64,000 nt of DNA from the NCBI GenBank assembly GCA_025526915.1, contig JAHLKH010000038.1:62001-126000 (forward strand), in the 5' to 3' direction. The notes under the pieces are model-generated. The model saw only the letters and a program-made list of their open reading frames with translations, had not been told where the DNA came from and did not search any database. Shown piece after piece: positions 7,334 to 29,276 of this stretch. The DNA comes from Entophlyctis helioformis (taxonomy: Eukaryota > Chytridiomycota > Chytridiomycetes > Chytridiales > Chytriomycetaceae). The translations under genes and the position numbers were made by a program. Position 1 is the first letter of the stretch, and each line of letters starts with the position of its first letter.

Positions 7334-7676
7334 ACATGACGTTTGACTCACTTGCATGCTCTCTATTGGGCAACGGGAGGGTCGGCAGCCAGCATGGATG
7401 GCCAGTAAATGAAATCTAGTGTTGATTCCAGCATCATGTCTTGGAACAGAGAAAGCCCTCCCGATCGACCTAACGGGTCGCCTTGTTGTTGGTAACTTGC
7501 CTGCAGACGCGCATCTTCTGCCGGTTGCCCATGCTGGCTGCTCGAACTGGAAAGGGTATGGTATGCATGCCCAGCAGCAACGATGCCATGGGTTGCTTTT
7601 CTTTGCTTTGAATTTGAGGCGAATCTACCTCTACGACACGAACCAGCTCACAGAATCAGTTACGATTTACACGGCC
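7334..7676. other. Intergenic spacer carrying the upstream copy of the 23-bp repeat
   Basis: No coding exon is visible. The spacer holds the SDR 3' region, the 23-bp repeat copy at 7457-7479, and the probable promoter of the phosphatase gene, with an AT-richer patch at about 7595-7625. Some loosely matching sequence follows both repeat copies (CATGCTGGCTGCT here against CATGCTTGTTGCT at 21751-21763). Confidence 0.5.
7457..7479 (+). repeat. 23-bp direct repeat, upstream copy
   Basis: Identical over 23 bp to 21667-21689; the core is CCCGATCGACCTAACGGGTC. It contains a short hairpin, CGACC-TAACG-GGTCG, in this copy. Neither copy matches the flanking genes. It could be an element end, an integration footprint or a conserved structured RNA. 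The exact match was read directly; the function is unknown. Confidence 0.8.
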
Positions 7677-11752: not shown

Positions 11753-12770
11753 GGTGGCGAGCGTTGACGATGTTGAGGGAAACCAGAAGGGCCAGTTGAT
11801 CACTATAAGAGGCAGGCATTCATTGTGCTGGCAATGGGCCGTGGATCAGGGCAGCGCACGAGGGGGGGGGGGTAATTGATTTCGTTCCCATAGAGCACCG
11901 TGCGCCGGCACCTGATTGGTCGGTTGGTTTGCCTCGAATTTTGTTCAATTTGGCATCCAATTTCCAATCGTTTTGAATCCAATTTCATATTCTTGTCCGA
12001 ATTCCCAGTCACTCTGAGCAGCCTGCAGCCGATGCCTTCTCAAGTCGTCGTCGCTTTGACGCTGGCTTGTGGTCTGCTGAGCCTGTCCAAGGGGCAGCAG
12101 TTGGTTGCGTGTTGGTAATGACACCAAGAACTGTCCTGCCACTGCCTGTTGCGGCTGTTGGCCTTCTGCGTCCAGTCGGCGCACTTGTGTGTGCTGTTGG
12201 GGCTGCCTGCTGCAATGTCCGAACGACCGACGTCACAGGCGACACAGACGCACTGGCATCTGCTGCTGCTGCTGGTATCTTCCGCTTGCTTGTCGATCTT
12301 TGGCGGCTGGCCGTTGGCGTGGCAGCTACAGCAACGGCTGGCTGTCCATGCTCGCCTGCAAGGTACTTGTCGTTGTCGAGACTGTCAAGGCACACAGTGT
12401 CAACAGAGTCGCAACTGTTGACAGCCATCGCACAACAGGCAGACGAGCTCACCAACAAGGACATGGATGGATCACTCGGCGCATCGTTGAGCTGCTGCGT
12501 ATCGTTGAGCTGCTGTAAGGCCTCGCGCTTGGATTGGTCTGACTTTGAGAACTGTCGAGGCGATACACACAGAATGCCTGCAGCAATTCTGCTCACTCAT
12601 GTCAACCTCTGTCCTGGCTGCCTTTTGTGTACACAGCATACTCTCTCTGGACGGGATCGCTGATGGATCCCCATACAAAGATGTTGTATGATCTGTCGTA
12701 GGATGGGTATGTGCTGTTTGTGCAGTTAGTCTGCTGTGCGATCAGTGCATACACATCCTATGAGAACATT
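11753..12770. other. Long intergenic region with an AT-rich patch and one doubtful reading frame
   Basis: The 5' side holds the probable promoter of the minus-strand glycosyltransferase, including a run of ten G at about 11862-11871 and an unusually AT-rich stretch at 11935-12005 with repeated CCAATTT-like words. The rest contains one minus-strand open frame listed separately. No exon could be confirmed by homology. Confidence 0.4.
12009..12596 (-). CDS. Doubtful open reading frame, no recognised domain
   Basis: An uninterrupted minus-strand frame of 195 codons starts with ATG at 12596. The product is Ser/Ala/Gln-rich with basic clusters (RQRSTSKRKIP, KPASKRRRLEK), which would suit a disordered nuclear protein. 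No catalytic or structural motif is seen. The opposite strand is also open over much of the interval, and no clear donor or acceptor sites flank it. It may be a real short gene between the glycosyltransferase and the next minus-strand gene, or chance. Confidence 0.25.
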   Translation of the reverse strand: MSRIAAGILCVSPRQFSKSDQSKREALQQLNDTQQLNDAPSDPSMSLLVSSSACCAMAVNSCDSVDTVCLDSLDNDKYLAGEHGQPAVAVAATPTASRQRSTSKRKIPAAAADASASVSPVTSVVRTLQQAAPTAHTSAPTGRRRPTAATGSGRTVLGVITNTQPTAAPWTGSADHKPASKRRRLEKASAAGCSE

Positions 12771-13769
12771 CTACCGGCATTTGAATGATGGCTCAACAAG
12801 GAATCCGCGCTGATCAACATCCATCGACCTGATCTTGAAGATGAGTTGCATCTGTCGCGCGGCTGACATGAACTCTTCCAGGTCTGACTTGTCATTCCGG
12901 CCCTTTCCAGTCCGTCGTAAACTGTCTCGCCACGCGTTAAACAGCTGTGTTGCATGCAATGGTTAGTGCTGATCGTCAAGGATAGTGTGTCGCCTACATG
13001 CTTGTAGACTCACCTGCTCTACGGGATAGGACGTAAGCGCGCGACCATACAGGTGCGTAAAGGTCGCTCCTTCTGGGACTGCAAACTCTGCATCTGGATC
13101 AAGTGTCACAAGCATGCCCAGATTCTGGTTGTTGGCTGCTGCAAAGACGCTCGTCTCGGCAAACTGCCGTGTGAGGTTTGGAAGTCAGTGAGCGATTGCA
13201 CTGCTTATTCTGTGTTGTGGGTGATCAGACTTACCTTGTGATGCTCGTGGTGCTTTGCATAGTGCTCAAGGAGTTGGAGGACGCTGCTCTTGAACGAGGG
13301 ATCAGGATGCAATGCCATGCATCACGATGTCAGGATTGCTGGAATCTATGAGGCACGGGAGCTTGACGAGAAGCTTGTCGATGCTGTCAAGAGGCACCAC
13401 CTATACTTCACGGCCGCCAAGTTCCATCTTGATGGCAAGAGCAGGGACGTTGTTGTCAAGTCGTCTTGGCATGAAGCTTGTCAGAACCAAGGGGAGGCGA
13501 GACACTTGGACGCATATGACGCCTTTACGCGGGCCATCTGTGAGCTTGACGAGCGGCAGCAGCGAATGTATTTGGTTCTTCTTGTCCACCAGTGTCATGC
13601 TTTCGAATGAACCATTGTCGCGGTGTAAGCACAAGCTGTTGTCCAGAAGCTTTCCTGTTGGGTCGATGGCCTGCGGGTCTGCTTGACTGGGAGCTGGCTC
13701 TGTGGTGGTGGCTGCGTCCGTGTAGTCCTGCTGGTGCTCAGCGGCATGTGGTGGCTGTTGCTCGTCCAT
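12771..13769 (-). CDS. Uncharacterised four-exon protein
   Basis: Exons 13769-13407, 13288-13235, 13163-13014 and 12944-12771 join in frame to about 246 residues; the last two introns have good GTAAGT and GTGAGT donors, while the first junction (GTATAG donor, CAAG acceptor) is my best guess. The N-terminus is acidic and Gln/Pro/Thr-rich. A central part has short hydrophobic strands (GVICVQVSRLPLVLTSF), then a His-rich helix LLEHYAKHHEHHK, LGMLVTLDPDAEFAVPEGA and a basic C-terminus. I do not recognise a family. It lies head-to-head with the Fanzor gene, 840 bp away, and inside the repeat-bracketed segment, so it could be element cargo or simply a neighbour. Confidence 0.6.
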
Positions 13770-14609
13770 TACAAACTCTGTCGCCAGAGCGCCACTGCCA
13801 CTGGTGGTGGGATCGCTGTGATTGGTCGAGCCCAGATCTGGTCGCGGCACTTGCCCAAATGCGCGCCATCAACAGCGAGCACAACACGGGCGACAACACA
13901 GCGGCAGCTGACAGGCGGATGGTTCCGATGGGCACAAGAGTGCCGTGCACATGGGCTGCCACATGACCAGTGCCTCGCAAGCCTTCACAAGCCTGCCGCA
14001 CCATCAACCACTCGGGCTTCCCAAGTCGACACACAACCATCCCCAACAGCCACTGCGGCACGCCCCTTCACTGCGAGGCGGCATCCGTCAAGTCTTGCAG
14101 CCTTCGAGTGGTGCGTACATGCCGCTCATTGCCCAGTGGAGCCAGTCGACTGCCAACCACGGCAGCTGCCGCACTGTTGGAGCAGTGGCGAGCTGACTCT
14201 CGACCGTGCCTTGCTCCACCTCCTGCCCACCGACCAACCGACCGCCCCATCCCGTCCAGCCCACGACGCTGTCCAACCCCCTCTTGCTCTCGCAGCCACA
14301 CGCAGTCGCTCGGCCCGCAGACGGCAGGTTGGTGTGCTCCTGTCCATCCATCTACAGACCCAACGGCGTACTCTGACTGGCACTGACGCTCGCACTTGCC
14401 GCCTTTGCTCTGTCCTCTCTCGCTCTTGCCGCCTCACTGTCCATGTCTGGCTGGCCCAGCTCTCAACGCACGCCGCCCCCTCACCCGCCAACGCCTCCTT
14501 GCCCGCCAACGCCCCCTCGCCCACCAACTCGTCCAGCAAGCACGTGCTTGCACACTGACACCACCGCCACCGCCACCGCCACCGCCACTCGCTCTGACAC
14601 TCGCGCAGC
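13770..14609. other. Divergent intergenic region upstream of the Fanzor gene
   Basis: This is the presumed shared promoter region of the unrecognised minus-strand gene and the Fanzor gene. The last 130 bp before the ATG hold a C-rich tandem of CGCCAACGCC-like units (about 14472-14540) and a (CCGCCA)n tract at about 14562-14585. I could not identify a left element end, terminal inverted repeat or upstream exon with confidence. Confidence 0.4.
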
Positions 14610-17600
14610 ATGGGCATTCCAAGAGTGATCCCAAAAGTCATCAAGGGGCAAGGTGGCAAGGCACTACCTTTCGGGACGACGCTGTCTGCTGGACTGGATC
14701 TGGTGCTTGAAGACACCACGCAACACAGCATCAGCAGCATTTACAACAGCGCGACCACTCGACCCCATCTTCTGCCACCACCATTGATGCTGCGCCTGCT
14801 TCAAAGGAAACCACCACCGCCACAGCTGCAACCGCACATGCTCGTATCCGGAATTGTCCACGTCGATGCTTTGAGCATCTTCTACGGAACGCTCCGTAAA
14901 CTGGCTGCCTCCCACCTGCCATCATCAGTCAGTGGGTGGTTGGCAATTCTTGCACCTGTCCTCGACGGCTTCCTCAAGTCGGTCGGCAACGGCCGGATCG
15001 TCGTCTTCCATGTTGATGGCAGGCTTGCCGAGACTGGAATCAAGCAGCAGGCGCATGCCAGCCGCACCTTGGACGTCTTGCGCGCAGCAGCAACAGCTCA
15101 ACAGTTGTGTGCCAAACGCAAACACCGTCACCGATGTGGGACATTAGAAAAGTAAGGTCACTTGTTTGTGCAGCATCAAGATGATTCTAACTAACAGTCA
15201 TTGTTGCAGGAAAGAGGAGCAGGCACTGATGCGCTGCTTCACTCTCACGCAAGGCGACAAGAAGCATATCAAGGAAGCGATTGAGGCGTTTCTCGACCCG
15301 CTGTCGTACCATGCTGTATGCTGGTGCGAACACGAAGCCGATGTTTGCATCGCACGCGACGCTGCCGAGTATGCAAGCCAGCCAAGGTACAGATCGGCAT
15401 GACATCTGTCTGTTATGATTGATGGCTGACAACCTGCATCCTGCAGCAATGTCCTGCCATTAGCGGTCATCACTGGCGATTCGGATCTTGTATTCCATTG
15501 TGCTGGCCGTTGCGGTGTCCTGATGACACGCATGCACAGCGGGCATGCCACCAACATCCGCACGTTCAATCACCAGGGCGTTGCGACCATTGCAGCTGCC
15601 CTTGGACTGCGTGTTTTCCCTGGTGTATGTCAGCTGTTTGCTGCCATAGCAAACAATGACTATCACAGTTGCCATGGTTGCGGTATGTCCATTGCTTGAC
15701 TCTGTGCTTGTGTTTGTCATCCATGTTGCGATGTTGACTAACTTGTGTTGCCATTCACATTGCCTGGCAGGCAATGCTGCTGCCGTCAAGTTCATCAACG
15801 ACCAGTTTGACGCCGCGGCCAAGGAGCGCCGCTTCAACAACCCGGCCGACTTCTGTGCGCTGCTTCACGATCCTATGGAGGCAGATGCATTTGCCAATCG
15901 CGTTAAGAATGCATATGTTGCTGACCTGCTGTCGCTGGATGGTGGTGTGGCTCTTGCCAAGAGCTTCCTCAACGCCTTTGGCGTTTTCGTCTACCATGAC
16001 GAGTCAGGGACTTTTGCCAACACGGTCACATTCCCAACCAGCGACAGCAGTCAATCTGGCAATGTGCCAAAGAAGAGGCAAGTCCTTGCATGACTGGTCA
16101 TGGCATGGTGGCATAGATCCGTTTGCATGCATGGCACTCAACTGACCGTCTCTCACCACATGGCAACGACAACAGCGTGGCTGTTGACGCGACCACCACG
16201 CATCAAGCAAAGTATGTATGCATGCATGTGATCTCTTGGTGTGTCCTGCATGACTGACTCTGTGCTTCTGTCTTTGATGCAACCACTGGATCGCGATGCA
16301 GGTGCCAGCTACATGACGGCTGCCTTGTGATCCATCCCAAGGCGCAGCAAGGCAAGCAAAACCCCAACATCATCCATCTCACGCAGGACGACATCAGGCC
16401 ACTTGTCAGGAACATTGTCAAGGAACAGCAGCTCAGTCTTACGCTGGACAAGGTCAAGAACTGCCCCGCCGCACTCGACTGCGTCCTCCGACATGCGGCC
16501 GATCGCATCACTCGCATCACCAACGGGGTCAAAGGCCGCAACATTCTCGCAAAGATCAGCAGGTCGGCAAGTGTGCAACTGTTGGAGATTGTCCGCAAGC
16601 AGGCTCGTGAAGTGGAAGAGCGGGCAAAGCTTGGCCCGAAGGATCGGGCTATTTGGGATGGACATGTAAGTTGCTGCATGTCTCTGATGCATGTGCATTC
16701 TCACTTTGAAGTGTCTAACCCAATCCACTGTGCATTGTACAGGGTGCTGCTTTGAGGATGAAGAAGCAGTTGGGCAAGATTGTCAATCGTCCATGCAAAC
16801 CACACCGCCACCTATCGACACCGAGTATGTGTTGCTTGCATTGGGATCATGCCAACTCGTGTACTGACAGCAGCTTCTTTGCTGAACGGTGCTATTCCAG
16901 AAACAGATGCGCAGAAAGACTCACAGCAAGGCACGCAGCAAGACACACAGCCAGCCACGCAGCCAGCCACGCAGCAAGTCAAGTACCAAGGCAAGGCCAT
17001 CACCCGAGGCGGTTCCCCATTGACCGCTGCCGGCATCCGCGACAAGGCGATCAAGAGGCGGGGGGCCTTGAAAGACCTCAAGAATTGCCGATTAGTGACA
17101 CGCCACGAGCAGCTGAAAGAGGTCATTGACTTGCTTACGTCGATCATCAAGCAAGCCACGGTACGTCTCCATCTTCACTGGCTGTGTGTGCATGCAATGA
17201 CTTGGCACGATTGCTCATTGTTCCACTTGACAGGAGGCTCAACTGCCCAAGCTGCCCGAGCAAGAACTGCCATCCGCCGACGGCCAGGCTGGTCAAGCAG
17301 ACCGCAAGATCTTGTATCTCAATCAAGATGCAGACATCCGGACGACGGTCAGTTCTGGTGTTCCATTGGTGCTTGCGTGTGCATTGTGTGCACTTGGAAT
17401 GCATTGCTGATCGTGCATCCAACCTCCACAGGCGCGACGCCAAATCACCAAGCAACAGGAGGCTGCGAACAAGCAGAAGTGCGAAAAGCAAGCTGCCAAG
17501 GCCGCGGCAGACAAGGCCATCGACAGGAACAAGGAGAGTGCACGCCGGCAAGACCGCCACACCCAACCAGTGGACCCGAAGCAGACGTGAGTGTTGTACA

Positions 17601-20600
17601 CTGTGCCATGTGCCTTGGGCATGCTTGCTGACATGTGTGGGCTTTGCAGACGCAAAGGTGGAGCACGAGTGACACAAGGTCGGGTTGACAGAAAGGGGGG
17701 ACGCCTCACGTCAGGGGCACCCATGACGCTCCCTGCGGCCATTGGCGGCAACAATCAACAAGCTGCTGTGCACGCGCCCGGTCAACCTGCTGTCGACACG
17801 CCTAGTCAAGCCGCCACGGACGCAACCGATCAAGCCGCCGCTGATACACCCGATCAACCTGGAGAGGATGCATCTGATCATTGTCATATGAGAGTGCTGC
17901 TGGAGGTATGATTTAGGATAGCCATTCTGCCTGCATGCATGGCTTTGAATGTACTGACTCAGAGGTTGGCTTGCATGGTGCTCAGGACATGTTGTCAGGC
18001 GGCCCGCAGAGCGCCCCGATCTTTGGCGTTCATGCCATCAGGTCATCAACAAGTTGGACACGCCGCCAACTTATTGAGGACATTGTCGCGAGGATTCAAT
18101 CGTTCACGGTCGGCATGCGGCATGCCGGCCTTGTCGTCATCGGTGCCGTCGTCGAGGAACTTCTCGAGCTTGACCAGGACGCGCCTCTGCCACCGTCGTA
18201 CCATGTCTACAAATGGCCCGATGGCAAGGCGACTCGGTATTGTTTCCTGGACGCTGATCTCAAGGACCTCGATGACCTCGGCGACAAGGACGTCATCAAG
18301 GGCCTCGGCGCTGTCACGAAAGCGGAGCTCTTGTCCGGTCAGTTCACGCTTCGCGAGGACATTGCCGCGCGGACCATGTACGGCGCGAGTCAGTATAATG
18401 GCAGCAGCAAGCACCCTCGCTTCGGCCATCGCGTGCGACTGGTCAAGGGAACAAGACTCGAGCGCGTCATGTTCGAGAAGGTCGAGACGCGCAAGTTGCC
18501 CAACGGCCAGCCACCAGCACCAGCAGCACCAGCAGTGCCGTCGCCCAATGAGCTGCTTGCGATGCTTGTCGCCAGTGAGTCGGGTGGCCAGACATCCGCG
18601 GCCTGCATCCTGCGGCACCTCTCGTTTGTCCTAACGGGCGAGCAGATGGTCAAGCCGATGTCCATCATGCTCACGCTCAATGCGTGGCTTGTCACGGTTG
18701 TCCAGCTGCTGATCCATCGCAGCTGGACACCTGGCAGCATGACCGACCAAGCTGCACCACCAGCCGACACGATCAAGGCCGACATGGACACTGGCAATGC
18801 GCAGCAGGCAGGCGCGCTGCGGACCACCGTGCGGATGGCCGAGATGAAGGTAGGCGCGCGTCGACCGGCCAAGAAGCAGCAGACTCGTGGGCGGCATCCA
18901 GACATGTGGTGGTCGAGCTTGCACCCAGCTGATGCACAGCAGGCCGACACACAGCAGGCAGTGGTGCCTTATCGGCTTGTCAACACCTTGTGCGCGCGTG
19001 CGACCAAGCAGATCTTCGAAAACCTGGCGAGGGAGGTGAGCGCCACACTCGCCAAGCACTTCATCGAGAACCGGTCAAAGCTGGCATTGGTCGCAGCCCA
19101 GAGAGCAATGCCTGCTGCGACTTCTGAGCAGATTGCAGCGTGGGTCGATGCCATATTCAAGCCACTCAAGACCACCAAGGTTGCCAGGCATGCCGCTGCT
19201 CAAGACGCCGTTCAGGACGCCGCTCAGGACACTGCTCAAGACGCCCCATTGCCGGCCATCGAGGACGACGCCATGGACGACGCCATGGACGCCACTCAGG
19301 ATGTCGCTCCTCCCGCCCCAACTCTCAAGCGGACCGCGTCACAGCTTCTGCTGGCCACCGATGGCAGCACATCCAAGAGGCAAAGGGACGAGACTACTGC
19401 CCCTGTCGCCACAGATGCCATGCAAGACACACCACCAGCCACACAGGACGGGGACGCCATCGAGATCCCACAAGAGCTGAATCCAATTCAGGCAATTGTG
19501 CGCAGCATGTCAACATCGGACATTGGACGGTTCTACCAACTCCTCAAGCTCGCTGGCACTTCAGTGATGAAGCTATGCCCGCAGCCAGCAAGCCGTGACC
19601 CGTTCATCCTCGTCACTGAGGCCACGCTCTTTTGGGCGGTGGTGGGGCTGCAAAGCGATCGCATTGGCAATGAGCACGATCCTGTCCTCCAAGCATTGCG
19701 AAAGGAGCTCCTGGCCGCAGTTGGTAAGTTGCATGTGTCTATGCCACGTCAATGCTATTTGATGCTGACACTCCACTTTTATCCAAAACTGCAAAGATGC
19801 CAAGTTGGAGCTTGGGACTGACGACAAGGTCATCCAAAGGGCTTTCAGCAATAGCAAGGAGCTGGCCATCCTCGACATCCTCCTGCCCGGCCTCCGCCCC
19901 AAGAATCGACGCCGTCCAACACAGGCCGAGGGTGATGAGGCTGCGGTTGATTCTCAGCCTCTGGTGGCTTCAAAGCAAGTGATCAGACAAGGCAGCATCA
20001 TGACAGATGGATACACGGTCTATCAGCTGGCACTGGACTGCCGCACAGACCGTCCAGAGTCGCCTCGCAGTATGTGCCGCGCTTGGATGCTTTGGTGCAC
20101 GCATTGATTCTGACTGCCGCCTTGATCTGCAGGTCCCAACGCGGCGTCTCCAGCCCAGCAGCCCAGTCTTGCTGATGCTGCTGTTGGCATCCTTAATGCC
20201 TTGAATGGTCAATTTATTGAGCCTGACCACATGGACGTCACATGTGAGTTGCTGTACCAATCCAGACGGGCACTTGTTGTCCACACCAACTGACATGCCA
20301 TCCACAGCCGCCGATCCAGCCGACCCATCAGCCACCAAGCCAAAAGCAACCAACCCTGTAAGCCACTTGCATGCTAACCTCGCGCATTGGTGCACATGCA
20401 TTGCACATTCCTCACTCATGCCATGGCATGGCAGGCCCAGCGCAACTTTAATGCATCGCAGCGACTGCCCAATGTTGCTGATGCCAACAAGCTGCTCGCC
20501 GACAAGGGCTATGAGACTGTTTGTGTTGTCAGCTTTGATTGGGGCGAGCGGTACCTGTATGGCGCGTCCAGCATGCTGGTCAATGTCGAGGACAAGACAT

Positions 20601-21628
20601 ACACCATGGAGTCCAACTACGTGCTCTCCTCTGGCATGGCACGAGCTGAGGGCATCTTTCAGCGGTGGTATGCATGCAATGACTCTGCCACGCGCACTCT
20701 TGACCAGATCAACTCACAGTGCCTGCCTCCTGTGCCAGGCTCAACAATCGATATGCCAAGGCTGCGGACGTCCACGAGGCCATTGCATTCAAGACAGCAA
20801 AGCATGCTGATCCAAACGCCACAGCAGGCGAGAGAGCCTTTTGGGATCTGCGCTGCCATGCATACTGCACGCCATTCCTGAATGCACGGGTACGTTTTCT
20901 CTGGTTCTGGATGCCCATTGCCATGACCGCCATGCTTCTTGATCGCCATGCTGATTGCACTGGATGGCATGGCATGGCATGGCATTCCACAGAAGGTCAA
21001 GGCCAAGCGGTTCACCAAGCGCAGCAACAGCACGTCTGATCGCGGAAACGCTCTTGAGGGCATCATGAAGCTGGCAGGATCGAAGACTGGAGAGCGCGCA
21101 TCTCGTGCATCTCAAGGCCTCCCTGTCGACCGAACAAAGTCGACAGAGGACAACATTCCCGTTGTCTGGGCATTTGGCATCGACTTTACAGGCCAAGGTG
21201 GCCGGCACGCTGTGTTTGAGGACTTTCTCATCAGGCATCTGCGGTCGTCTGGATATGCCTACGTGCGTCTGATGCCACGCTGTCCATCCATCCATCTGTG
21301 CACCAACTGACACACGATCATGCACACACACATACATACATACACACAGATCTACCGCTGCAACGAGAACCTGACCAGCCAGATGTGCCCGCAGTGCAAG
21401 CAGCGGATCCCAGACAAGAACCGCACCAACCTGCGACGCTACGAGTGCACAGACTGCAAGACTGTCTACCACCGCGATGTGCTTGGAGCCACCAACATCG
21501 GAATGGTCGCACTGGGGCATCTGTTCCATGGACAACGGCCGCTCTACTTGACGCACACGCCAGCCGGTCAGCCTGTCAACAGCATCGCAGCAGTGTCCTC
21601 CACAGACACAGCAAGTCACTCCATGTGA
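14610..21628 (+). CDS. FEN1/XPG-like nuclease fused to Fanzor (TnpB-like RuvC) RNA-guided nuclease
   Basis: Nineteen exons (14610-15151, 15210-15386, 15447-15682, 15771-16077, 16176-16211, 16302-16665, 16743-16824, 16901-17160, 17234-17347, 17432-17586, 17650-17905, 17986-19723, 19797-20069, 20133-20243, 20308-20357, 20435-20667, 20739-20889, 20993-21262, 21350-21628) join in frame to about 1,877 residues. Residues 1-330 resemble FEN1: MGIPRVIPK start, VDAL (D86), HVDGR (D136), EHEAD (E221, E223), GDSD (D251, D253), NNDY (D311) and the helix-hairpin HGCGNAAAVKFI. A long low-complexity and coiled-coil linker follows. The C-terminal part has a TDG strand (~1492), RuvC-I SFDWGERYLYGA (D1602), NENLTSQMCPQC (E1791 and first zinc pair), YECTDC, and RuvC-III YHRDVLGATNI (D1828). 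Fanzors cut DNA guided by an element-encoded RNA. Two adjacent genes instead of one fusion remain possible. The intron after 16077 has a GC donor. Confidence 0.85.
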
Positions 21629-21720
21629 CTTGCAGCACCACCACCAGCACAATATGAATCGGGGAACCTCCCGATCGACCTAACGGGTCACTTTTTCTTA
21701 CGAGAAAGGTAAGCACTTCG
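21629..21720 (+). ncRNA. Candidate Fanzor right end / guide-RNA scaffold
   Basis: TnpB and Fanzor guide RNAs are normally transcribed from the 3' end of the nuclease gene and the adjacent element end. Directly behind this stop codon lie the 23-bp repeat copy (21667-21689), whose GACC and GGTC arms can pair, and a second perfect hairpin TTTCT-TACG-AGAAA at 21694-21707. The start, end and strand of any RNA are not determined by the sequence; the placement is inference from the family. Confidence 0.35.
21667..21689 (+). repeat. 23-bp direct repeat, downstream copy
   Basis: Exact copy of 7457-7479, 39 bp after the Fanzor stop codon; the other copy lies 124 bp after the SDR stop codon. Both copies have the same orientation and bracket 14.2 kb. 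Flanking bases differ on both sides, so the conserved unit is sharply bounded. Confidence 0.8.
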
Positions 21721-21892
21721 TCAGATGTGCCTCGCCCGCTTGTCGTCGCATGCTTGTTGCTGACTCGAACCTTCCATCGTGTGATGTGCGGGCTTGCATT
21801 CGACGCTTCTCGGGTCGAATCCAATTCCAAAACGCTTGGCAATTGTTTGAATGTCGGGCCATTTGCCCGCGGTTTGCCGGCATTCCCTCGCC

Positions 21893-22601
21893 CTATTGCC
21901 CACCCCTCGGCAGCGCACTCTCCACGATCCTGCGAAACGTGAGCGACACACGCCGCCCACGCTCAATGACCACATCGCCGGCCGTCTCGACCGTTTCTTT
22001 GGAGATGCAGTGGGTCATGCCGTATCTCGCATGGCCCTGCATGACAAGCAGCGACCGCGGCGGCAGGTGCACAGGCACCGACTCTGCCGTTGCCGTGTCG
22101 GTGAATGTCATGATGCAGGGCGTGAGCAGCGACAGGGACGTGACGACCGGCCCAAAGGCCATCGAGTCGACATGCGGCATGATGCTTTGTGGTTGTTGCA
22201 GACATGAATGCCGCATGCATGCCATTGCAGACGGGATCAGCCATCGGTCCGTGCCAGCGAGGCCGTGTCCATTGCGCATTGCCCACGGCTCACCCTTGGC
22301 CCAGATCGTACTCATTGACAAGCATGTGGTTGGGCGGGCCATCGCCAAAGATGCCATGTGCACGCAGCCGGTCCGAGACGGCCGACACAAAGTCGGGCAG
22401 ATCGCCCAGCCGCTGCTCAACCAGCCGGCTTCTGAAGGAGAAGAGGAAGCCGTACTGCTGCGTGCGCCGCCTCAGCTCTGGGTTGGGCGGGCGGCCGTGG
22501 CCGGACCACGGCTGTGCATCGATTGCGTGCACCAGCTGCTGCTCTTCGAGCGGACTCACAAAGTCGAGCAGCAGCTCGAGTCCCTGAGGCAGCAGCTGCA
22601 T
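21893..22601 (-). CDS. AlkB-like Fe(II)/2-oxoglutarate dioxygenase
   Basis: Two exons (22601-22294, 22184-21893) give about 199 residues. The double-stranded beta-helix core shows the substrate-lid region NHMLVNEYDLGQG, the iron ligands HxD in IMPHVDS, a distal histidine in GMTHCISK, and the 2-oxoglutarate-binding arginines in RRVSLTFRRI. VPVHLPPRSLLVMQG is typical of the ALKBH6/ALKBH8 branch. It lacks the methyltransferase domain of animal ALKBH8. Such enzymes demethylate or hydroxylate nucleic acids; the substrate is unknown. Its 3' end faces the Fanzor 3' end. Confidence 0.85.
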
Positions 22602-22750
22602 GTCTGGCGGTCGCTGAACTGAGGGGCAGCGAGGGCGTATGAGGGGTGGGCAATAGGGCGAGAGTGTCACGTGACTATGATGGCACAAACTCGAAGCCGC
22701 CTGCGTGGCCGCTTGCCGAACCAACCGACAACCACACAACCACACACACC

Positions 22751-23478
22751 ATGCTCATCAAGGTCAAGGTCAGCAAGCAGCGGCTGTCTGTCTGTTGGCC
22801 TGTTGGCCTGCCTGCTTGCCTGCCTGGCACTGTTGCGCTAACCGACTGCTGCTCAAACTGCCGTTCGCCGCACTCCGCTCCAGACGTTGACGGGAAAGGA
22901 GGTGCGTTCGTGATCACCAGCAGCAACCCTGGCCACAGCGCCAAGCGCCGAGTTCAGCCGCAGTGCCGCTCTCTGGGCCATGCACGACCCCTGCGCTAAC
23001 TGCTGCCCGTCTGCCACCCACCCACGGACTGCCGATGCCGTGCGGATGCCAACAGATTGAGATTGACATTGAGCCCAACGACAAGGTGGAGTCTCTGTGC
23101 CGACGAAGCCTTGGCTGATATGATGATGTCTGGGCTGCCAGAACTGACGAGGAGGCCCGCGCTGCAGGTTACTCGCATCAAGGAGCGTGTCGAGGAGAAG
23201 GAGGGCATTCCGCCTGCGCAGCAGCGGTGCGTCTGGCCACACTTGCGACTGCGATCTGTGCCGTGGCCGTTGAACTGACCTGGATGAATGCACACCAGTC
23301 TCATCTTTGGCGGCAAGCAAATGTAAGCGGCTGTTGTGTCGAATGCCGCTCTGCAGGCTTGGCACTGCGACTGACACGGCTGCTGTGGTCCAGGGTTGAC
23401 GACAAGACTGCGGCCGACTACGGCATCGAGGCCGGCACGGTGCTGCACCTTGTGCTTGCCCTGCGTGGCGGATTCTGA
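22751..23478 (+). CDS. RUB1: NEDD8 / RUB1 ubiquitin-like modifier
   Basis: Six short exons (22751-22768, 22884-22901, 23056-23085, 23168-23226, 23299-23322, 23394-23478) encode 77 residues: MLIKVK, TLTGKE, IEIDIEPNDK, VTRIKERVEEKEGIPPAQQR, LIFGGKQM, and a C-terminus LALRGG followed by one Phe. The pattern is NEDD8 rather than ubiquitin (MLIKVKTLTGKEIEIDIEP). The final Phe must be trimmed to expose the Gly-Gly for conjugation to cullins. Exons 1 and 2 are only 18 nt each. The start codon is preceded directly by a CA-rich leader (CCACACACACC). Confidence 0.96.
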
Positions 23479-26979: not shown

Positions 26980-29276
26980 ATGGGCATCGGCGGCCTCACC
27001 ACGTTCATCAGCACCAACCATCCCCGTGTGGGCGAGGATGTGCCGCTGGACACTCCGCAGGCATTCATCATCGACGGCAACTCGCTGGTCCACCATCTGG
27101 CCCTCTGCTTCGACTGGAGCCTGGGAGGTACTCGTGGGCTGGGCACTGTTTGGCACCTCGTGGTCTCAACGGCGCATCCGACTCACACTCTCTCGCCATG
27201 CGAGCAGCGCATTATGGCCAGCTCGCCTGGCTGCTGCAGGACAAGAGCCGCCAGCTGGCTTGCGCCCGCGGATCGCAGCACTCGCTAACGTTCGTCTTTG
27301 ACGGCCCGCTGCCCGCCTACAAGGTGTCTGAGCGCTTGAAGCGCAACGCACAAAAGGTCGAGCGGCTGCAGCTGGTCGTTCAGGCTGCGCTCAGCGGCAC
27401 CGTGGCTGGCGCCTGGTCGACGTTTGCTGTTAGCAACCTGCTCGCCTCGGCTGCATCCATCTTGCCGCCCATGACCATGAATCTGGCTGTCCACTCTCTC
27501 AAGGAGGCCGGATACAACGTGGTCGTCTCGGAGATCGACGAGGCCGACGCACACATCGCTCGGCTGGCTCGCGAGTCCAACGGCATCGTCTTGAGCCGCG
27601 ACTCGGACTTTTACGTCCTCGACGTCCCGTACTTTGTGCCCATCGACGTCGTCTTTCCGATCGTCATTGGGCAGCTGTCTCGGCCACCGTCCTCAGAGCT
27701 GTCAATCGCAGACGCTGCAGTCCAGGGAGCAGCCGATCTCACAAGCCGCACGGTCCTGAGAGCAGTCAACCGCAGCCATCTGGCAGACGCCATGCGGATC
27801 CATCCCGACCATCTCCCACTTCTGGCCGTGCTGGCTGGATACGATCTCGGCACCGATCCCAGCCTAGAGACCCTTTTTGCATCCCTGCAGCTCCACATCA
27901 ACCGCAAGAAATGGCCAGTGATCCTGTCCCTTCTGCGGCCGCTGTCGTGCATCCCGGTCGAGTCTGCCATCTCGTCGCTCTCCAAGCGCATGGCTTCATC
28001 TGCTCGGCTCCAGGGAAAGCTGACTGCCGCGTTCGAGGCGGCCGTCCTGCACTTTGGCAAGCATCCCGACACCAATCTGACGCAGATTAGCGATGCAGCT
28101 GCGTCGGCCGACCCTGTGCCCACATCCCCTGTCTCGGTCGATCCATTCCTTGCAACACTCAAGACGCTCGCGTCCAATGGATCAGTGCATTCGCGGCTTA
28201 TTGAGGTCTACCGCGATCATGTCTTTTGGGGGCCTCCGTCCCTGGAGGACGACTACAAGGACAGTGCCTGGAAGGTGTCGCTGCCCATCCGCCAACTTGC
28301 GTATGTCATTCTGGGATGCGAGCCAGAAACCCCCATCACAGAGCACTGGCGAAAGGGCGACAGCATGGGGTCCTCGGCCGTGCTCCCCGAGACACTCCCG
28401 GCACATTTGAACCTGGCATCCATCACGACGCATGCGAGCTGGAAGCATGCCTTTGCAACTCTCCTGCCAGGCTCCTTTGCAGAGTCGTGCAGCAGCCTCG
28501 ACAGCATGTACTGGCCGCTTGTCCTCGCACTTCGTTACATCATTGATGTGCGGTACAAGGCTGGCCAGAGCGTTGGAAACCACGAGTTGAATGCATGGGT
28601 GTGTGCTGGCACGCTCGCTCTGCACCGCAATCTGGCCCATGCCAGTTTGGCATCCGCACACAAACCTGTTTTCGCGTCCAAGGCAACACCCCCAGTCACA
28701 CGAGCATCGCTGCACGACTTTGCGCAACTCGAGTCCACGCTTAACTCGATGCTCCTGCTCTTCCAGGCTGGCCTTGCTCGCTGTGCTCTGGATACCCCAC
28801 AGCAGCCTCCTCGATCGAAGCGGCATCAAGACCTGGGCTTGTCACAGCACACATTTTGGGCGTGTCTGGACGGACCTGAATTCCATCTGTGCATGGACAT
28901 GGCGCGCAAGGGTGCAGCTCCTGACCAGATCGTGGCTGCACGCGAGCTCTCGACCTCGCCCTCATCCGCTGATCTTGCTTCGGTGGTCCAGCAGGTTTTG
29001 TCTGCCTGTGCCGACGATCAGGACAACGAGAACTCCAAGATTGAGATTGTTGTCGACTACACATCAACGACATCTGCGGCCAAGACCAGGACAAAGAAGC
29101 CACGAGTGAAAACGCCGAAATCCAAGGCGTTGGGCAGCGACAGCAGCACTAACGGCAGCACAAGCAAAGATAGTGGCAGTTGCGACGTCAATTCTAACAA
29201 ACCGACAAGCAGCAGTCGTACGCTTACAGACACGAACGCCGAGAGCGTGCACGTTGCAAAAGACACTGAACAATAG
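26980..29276 (+). CDS. Asteroid-like (ASTE1) XPG-family protein
   Basis: Two exons (26980-27127 and 27205 or 27208-29276) give about 739 residues. The start MGIGGLTTFIS and FIIDGNSLVHHL are the XPG N-region, LTFVFDGPLP is the second acidic site, and SEIDEADAHIARLA with VLSRDSDFYVLDVPYFVPID is the internal region as in Asteroid proteins. A large helical domain and a Ser/Thr/Lys-rich tail follow. Asteroid homologues are PIN-fold proteins; some are structure-specific DNA nucleases in break repair. It diverges from RPN10 with only 77 bp between start codons. It shares ancestry with the N-terminal domain of the Fanzor gene but is clearly a different subfamily. Confidence 0.85.

Follow-up and report, generated by a model that had tools for sequence, protein, structure and literature searches.

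Can a single transposon gene encode two nucleases of different kinds, one resembling flap endonucleases and the other the RNA-guided nucleases TnpB and Fanzor? The question is raised by a gene at positions 14610–21628 (plus strand) of a stretch of 64,000 nucleotides from the chytrid Entophlyctis helioformis (Chytriomycetaceae; contig C38, positions 62001–126000; assembly of 29.57 Mb in 482 contigs), hereafter the window. An initial annotation, made from the sequence alone, had described it as an apparent fusion of a FEN1/XPG nuclease with a Fanzor. Our computational analysis makes it rather probable that this is the sole recognisable gene of a transposon of about 10 kb, and that it encodes one protein, with an XPG/PIN-like N-terminal part and a TnpB/Fanzor-like RuvC C-terminal part, which would support movement of the element by a guided cut, trimming and copying.

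The gene model was rebuilt with curated junctions, in place of an automatic splice search that gave poor ones. As had been annotated, 19 exons form a single frame, of 1877 aa and with no internal stop. The 18 introns are short (58–103 nt) and 17 of them have GT-AG borders. The description of the splice sites as ordinary thus holds for all but intron 4 (16078–16175), a GC-AG intron with a strong donor (AG/GCAAGT) which connects the XPG-like part with the remainder of the protein. In a spliced alignment of the window protein with other copies in the genome (56–72% identity over the aligned part), introns fall at mostly identical residues, e.g. 180, 239, 318, 419/420, 432 and 558.

The two parts recur together through the genome. 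At least 150 zinc-ribbon loci lie above the cut-off of PF07282, and at least 72 of the 150 have an N-terminal domain (N-domain) upstream, on the same strand and within 15 kb, at a median distance of 6.5 kb (59 at 4–8 kb). Among the matches listed, no N-domain is found downstream on the same strand (0 of 150) and the other strand gives 5 and 1. The pairing of 72 is a lower bound, because the N-domain matches listed are incomplete; it supersedes an earlier count of 33 of 73 N-domain loci (control 1). Chance does not explain an arrangement that so many divergent copies share.

The junction recurs as well. The donor AG/GCAAGTC[CT] follows the N-domain in 13 of 14 copies, and C130 also has GCAAGT, though the script picked another donor there. 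A donor-like sequence stands after the N-domain in 24 of 26 further loci (14 GC and 10 GT, the latter GTATGT, GTAGGT or GTAAGT; 8 located by script, 16 by eye, the GT group being read without a frame test), and the remaining two end with the fetched stretch. We then compared subfamilies of the element by the ratio of non-synonymous to synonymous substitution rates (dN/dS), using seven copies for the N-domain and residues 421–560 and four full-length copies beyond. The ratio is 0.21–0.28 in the N-domain, at a synonymous rate (dS) of 1.05–1.19, and 0.35–0.54 in residues 421–560, just past the junction. Over the whole linker region encoded by exons 5–11 (16176–17905, residues 421–843) the four full-length copies of the other subfamily give 0.44–0.54 for residues 421–560 and 0.65–0.82 for residues 561–843, and exon 12 (17986–19723, residues 844–1423) gives 0.37–0.41.

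These donors, and the fact that exons 5 and 6 keep the frame under a dN/dS below 1, speak against the existence of two products, i.e. an independent XPG-like protein some 430 aa long, made when intron 4 is often or always retained, and a RuvC protein made from a separate downstream transcript or from the spliced form only. Several observations nevertheless favour two products and weigh against a single fused protein. Five codons into intron 4 stands a conserved in-frame stop, which 13 of 14 copies have as RQV[LF]A-stop; all 8 further script-spliced loci have a stop there too (RQ[VD][IF][AV]-stop), and others read by eye have RYVYS-stop. The public gene model P0001 ends at this stop, in KKRQVLA. 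P0001 derives however from contig C240, whose copy diverges from the window sequence at 16189, just past the stop. From the conserved stop and the end of P0001, an XPG-only protein produced by intron retention is therefore possible beside the fusion; that two products are the rule seems to us unlikely.

Some counts also go against the fusion. No nearby N-domain is present among the matches listed for 78 of the 150 zinc-ribbon loci, 20 of these 78 being plus-strand loci near a contig start (plus-strand loci alone were checked). Inside the window's own subfamily the dN/dS of residues 421–560 reaches 0.50–1.38, at a low dS of 0.03–0.25 (five copies). In the RuvC part the ratio is 0.44–0.82 with four copies from the other subfamily and 0.51–0.73 with four from the window's own; this speaks weakly for constraint, and unreliable automatic splicing of exons 17–19 may have inflated the values. 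Given that junctions and pairing recur and that, between subfamilies, dN/dS stays below 1 before and after the junction, we consider the predicted fusion, as an architecture widespread in the genome of E. helioformis, to be well supported by the genome evidence.

What is the N-terminal part? The domain covers residues 77–421 (14838–16077, from within exon 1 to exon 4). Its seven acids D86, D136, E223, D225, D251, D253 and D311 are kept in an alignment of 24 rows, the only departures being gaps, two at D86 and one at D136. These rows represent 22 different copies (L101 and L110 appear twice) and leave aside eight of the 26 N-domain loci that had been fetched. Four of the eight (L098, L099, L114 and L115) keep all seven acids by eye; in L092, L094 and L112 the script reading loses the E-A-D stretch (L112 loses more), and stops interrupt L103. 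Among 14 separately read copies, C312 and C121 show K at 223 and S at 86, where the start of the domain is read through an insertion and is unreliable, and C130 shows T at 311. The FEN1 acidic set listed in the initial annotation is indeed present, but its pair E221/E223 has to be replaced by E223/D225, because residue 221 is variable (E, A, D, K or N in the 24 rows). We take E223/D225 to be the E-x-D form known from EXO1; E-A-D is also found in L002, an XPG_I locus of the same genome. The spacings between the seven acids are 50, 87, 2, 26, 2 and 58, to be compared with what we take to be those of human FEN1 (52, 72, 2, 19, 2 and 52). When eight acids were placed at random 200,000 times, such a pattern never arose, with tolerances set after the data had been seen. 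Two basic residues, K145 (22 K, 2 R) and R152 (23 R, 1 H), are also kept in the 24 rows, presumably at the place and spacing of the FEN1 gateway pair.

Profile searches give weaker indications. In the Pfam scan XPG_I_2, a family which we take to be Asteroid-type, is the commonest weak match: 6 of 8 members scanned match it at 1.9e-4 to 0.038, all under the cut-off (best score 21.5 bits for a cut-off of 24.2), and 5_3_exonuc_N is weakly matched in 3 of 8. A second N-domain alignment (A2, nine members) matches XPG_I_2 in 2 of 9 and 5_3_exonuc_N in 1 of 9, with unrelated families equally strong. The Pfam scan gave no match of the N-domain to XPG_N or XPG_I, and the NCBIfam and PHROGs scans gave no useful match. 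A further alignment, A4, retrieved coat proteins from the PDB and was discarded, as it mixes frame-broken public models.

It could thus be proposed that the N-domain merely resembles XPG, being a PIN-like or unrelated fold that serves for binding or structure and not for cutting. All its Pfam matches lie under the cut-off, and unrelated families match single members as weakly (alpha-kinase 0.0067, SlyX 0.012). The N-domain profiles retrieve no XPG protein from the PDB. FEN1 as the specific parent found no support: a four-sequence FEN1 profile scores 13.9 with the N-domain family in hhalign, whereas a reversed decoy scores 14.3 and at least 10 of 40 shuffled decoys also score higher (best 18.9). 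Two structure predictions, a check that had been proposed for this part, were made and gave no usable fold (predicted local distance difference test, pLDDT, 42.7 and 39.6). With one of these poor models a fold search places one EXO1 and two FEN1 chains at the top template modelling scores (0.19–0.21) among the best 50 of 62 matches, non-significantly; with the other, no FEN1 or EXO1 chain appears among the best 50 of 257 matches, likewise non-significant. The Pfam, PDB and FEN1 profile results and the poor models count against a nuclease of XPG type. On the other side stand the seven acids kept at a FEN1-like spacing, the conservation of K145 and R152, and the fact that XPG_I_2 and 5_3_exonuc_N are the families weakly matched in 6 and 3 of the 8 members. 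We therefore think a mere look-alike improbable and retain the N-domain as XPG/PIN-like, with a predicted homology to XPG proteins that is remote. The label “FEN1” is too specific for a domain that fits the XPG/PIN 5'-nuclease pattern, matches XPG_I_2 weakly and scores below decoys with FEN1. A host-like XPG gene also lies about 5 kb from the element, in an open frame at 27150–29273 (plus strand) that matches XPG_I_2 at 6.6e-10.

The C-terminal part is more readily recognised. It is encoded by exons 16–19 (20435–21628) and matches PF07282 (zinc-ribbon/TNB) at 2.4e-10, over the cut-off. Its residues D1602, T1794-S1795, C1798 and C1801 of a C4 zinc ribbon and R1827-D1828 conform to the Fanzor/TnpB motif D-X(125,275)-[TS][TS]-X-X-C4-X(5,50)-RD, as set out in the accessible portion of Bao and Jurka (PMC3627910). 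In a motif survey, RuvC-I reads DWG (with D1602) in 26 of 28 loci, and the alternative RuvC-II glutamate (E1791, about six residues before the zinc ribbon) is E in 26 of 28; in both cases the other two were unmatched by the search pattern. According to excerpts of PMC10711439, Fanzors are set apart by DPG together with the alternative glutamate, DPG being nearly exclusive to them. By this fingerprint, with the alternative glutamate in place and DWG instead of DPG in RuvC-I, the C-terminal part is a Fanzor-resembling protein of the TnpB superfamily and not a typical Fanzor. The name Fanzor was thus nearly right, as far as the motif, the zinc ribbon and the alternative glutamate are concerned, and fails on RuvC-I; we describe this part as a predicted TnpB/Fanzor-superfamily RuvC nuclease, atypical of Fanzor. 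Exon 12 lies where the WED/REC region would be expected and gave no convincing match in the Pfam scan.

The gene lies within a transposon at 11860–21908, flanked by a 10-bp target duplication, GGCAGCGCAC, at 11850–11859 and 21909–21918. This sequence occurs exactly twice in the window, at both ends of the element; its position and not its count is the evidence, because about one chance match is expected in the window. The 5' end (11860–11885, plus strand) reads GAGGGG(G)n followed by TAATTGATTTC. Of 39 other copies listed, 28 begin matching at 11840–11874 and six at 11887, and several of the 20 fetched 5' ends that were compared begin later or differ. The 3' end, CTCGCCCTATTGCCCACCCCTC (21887–21908, plus strand), and the 5' end form a short inverted repeat; where the 3' end of copies of the window's subfamily was read, most of them stop at 21908. 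The 5' leader (11886–14609) contains no recognised protein domain: 10 of its 25 listed open reading frames of at least 75 aa were scanned, with no Pfam match at E<=1. An exact inverted copy of the last 22 nt of the element stands at 22641–22662 (plus strand), roughly 730 bp further downstream, with nothing else of the element beside it. Directly after the element, at 22751–23478 (plus strand), comes a ubiquitin/NEDD8-like gene with short introns, recognised by eye.

Elsewhere in the genome the target duplication, read by eye, has 9 of 10 bases at the same place in C3; it is partial in C121 and C13 and there is none in C1 and C125. In other subfamilies many copies stop matching at TCGGGCC (window position 21860), after which the flanks are unrelated. 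Among three such copies with a fetched 5' side, C7 has an 11-bp duplication (ATAAAGTCAGT), C141 has none and C172 shares no 5' end. A second type of element end (TCGGGCC at 3', CCGGTTCTCATACC at 5') thus bears the same gene family, in L051, L057, L058 and others. The duplications of 10 bp (window), 9 of 10 bases (C3) and 11 bp (C7) are of the 9–11 bp size of MuDR/MULE-like elements, and an exon-by-exon search of the genome for the MULE transposase PF10551 gave no match.

Identity between subfamilies varies along the element: it is 89–94% in the fetched 5' leader and 88–91% at the RuvC end, versus 77% in the middle (73–74% in three partial copies). Likewise, dS between subfamilies is about 1.1 in the N-domain versus 0.13–0.22 in the RuvC part. 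Among the copies of C38, C1, C50, C53 and C125, the middle that carries the XPG module differs by about 23% and the ends by about 6–12%, so that parts of the element differ in age. It seems that the XPG module has been exchanged between elements, or that the ends have been homogenised.

A further conserved feature lies 3' of the gene, at 21655–21860 (plus strand). In 27 copies the mean identity to the window is 96.5% at 21655–21692, 92.3% in exon 19, 87.3% at 21711–21860 and 85.8% in intron 18; exon 18 reaches 93.2% (26 copies). The window sequence from 21580 to 21908 folds with a z of -3.4 relative to shuffles. The hairpin that adjoins the block exists in nine forms, of which eight (26 of the 27 sequences) form the stem and one does not. 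A 23-nt core of the block has 142 exact copies in the genome, versus 0 for a reversed control. For 81 of the 100 core copies listed, a listed RuvC/zinc-ribbon match on the same strand lies upstream at no more than 3 kb (80 at 307–951 nt and one at 2653), and for none is the match on the wrong side or strand; the other 19 have no RuvC/zinc-ribbon match near among those listed. One exact copy of the core is in the window itself, at 7457–7479 (plus strand; 28 nt at 93%), also with no RuvC match near among those listed. These features fit a candidate guide-RNA (omegaRNA) scaffold at the 3' end of the element. Less favourable to a scaffold are the conservation of most of the block (21711–21860), which barely exceeds that of intron 18 (87.3% versus 85.8%), and the RNAalifold prediction, in which 1 of 43 pairs is changed on both sides. 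The strongest stem is uninformative on covariation because it never varies. Rfam gave no match over threshold.

How might these components act together? We infer RNA guidance, a joint action of the two nuclease modules and a role in repair, the RNA-guided part by analogy with known TnpB and Fanzor. The 3' block would be transcribed as a scaffold, with a guide taken from the flank. The RuvC module would cut a matching site, either empty or homologous, and the XPG-like module would trim the 5' strand or flap displaced there; repair would in consequence copy the element into the cut site or back to it. The fused protein could also be the element's own transposase, with two nuclease centres that would cut strands at the element's ends and at the target, whether RNA takes part or not. 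No other domain was found in the element (among the 10 leader frames scanned), no MULE transposase in the genome despite the size of the duplications, and the same gene family is borne between two kinds of ends, all of which suits this proposal. However, the search covered MULE alone among transposase families, and a transposase encoded at another place in the genome may serve the element; moreover, no RuvC of TnpB or Fanzor is known to join strands. We hold a transposase role to be doubtful and prefer the guided cut followed by trimming and copying. A bolder and quite tentative extension of that mechanism is a self-sufficient class of eukaryotic transposons, whose sole protein would be the fused XPG-like and RNA-guided RuvC nuclease, guided cutting and self-trimming replacing a conventional transposase; such a class may have its origin in a DPhiG/alternative-glutamate lineage of TnpB other than that of the known Fanzors.

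If the two centres cooperate, the protein would amount to a natural nuclease that is guided by RNA and brings its own 5' end processing, maintained over many copies. It would then bear on how TnpB and Fanzor genes aid the survival of their transposons, and would suggest an architecture for editing enzymes that couples a guided break with end trimming. That a eukaryotic protein combines DWG and the alternative glutamate raises doubt as to whether DPG marks every eukaryotic TnpB relative.

Is this arrangement known elsewhere? A search for proteins combining XPG and Fanzor parts, as had been suggested, was run with the whole protein and with both parts, and only E. helioformis proteins were found. 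With the whole protein none of 7,999 candidates scored reached E<=1, a weak negative because the search was word-based and the protein contains low-complexity stretches. The N-domain profile (8,000 candidates scored) retrieved five proteins and the RuvC part (873 candidates scored) nine, all of E. helioformis. Viral contigs contained no relatives. In PubMed Central, whose content does not cover subscription papers and preprints outside it, we found no description of a Fanzor or TnpB joined to an XPG, PIN or flap-endonuclease domain. The one paper found there on Fanzor and chytrids is PMC10432273, and those on OrfB_Zn_ribbon and fungal transposable elements are PMC3627910 and PMC10711439.

With XPG, FEN1, EXO1 and the Asteroid-type XPG_I_2 proteins the N-domain shares seven acids in the same order and at similar spacing, as well as the E-x-D pair; in contrast to them it stays under every Pfam cut-off and is not matched by the FEN1 profile. 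The C-terminal part resembles Fanzor1 in its RuvC with the alternative glutamate (E-x-x-T-S-x-x-C), its C4 zinc ribbon and its RD, and the element resembles those of Fanzor1 as a DNA transposon with inverted repeats, a target duplication and a conserved region 3' of the gene. It differs from Fanzor1 by DWG in place of DPG, by the XPG-like domain, by its 19 exons and by its length of 1877 aa, most Fz1 proteins having 600–700 aa according to extracts of PMC11423790. A fungal Fanzor bearing an extra domain is known in PpFz1 of Parasitella parasitica, but its FRI is described in the same extracts as an insertion of about 100 aa inside RuvC that binds cyclophilin, and is not an N-terminal nuclease (PMC11423790). 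The PGv-1 Mariner element comes close in another respect, since a Fanzor is accompanied there by a second nuclease (GIY-YIG) on one element; as presented in the available passages of PMC3627910, these are separate proteins, the second nuclease has another fold and a Mariner transposase is present, whereas in E. helioformis the two nucleases are predicted to be joined in one protein.

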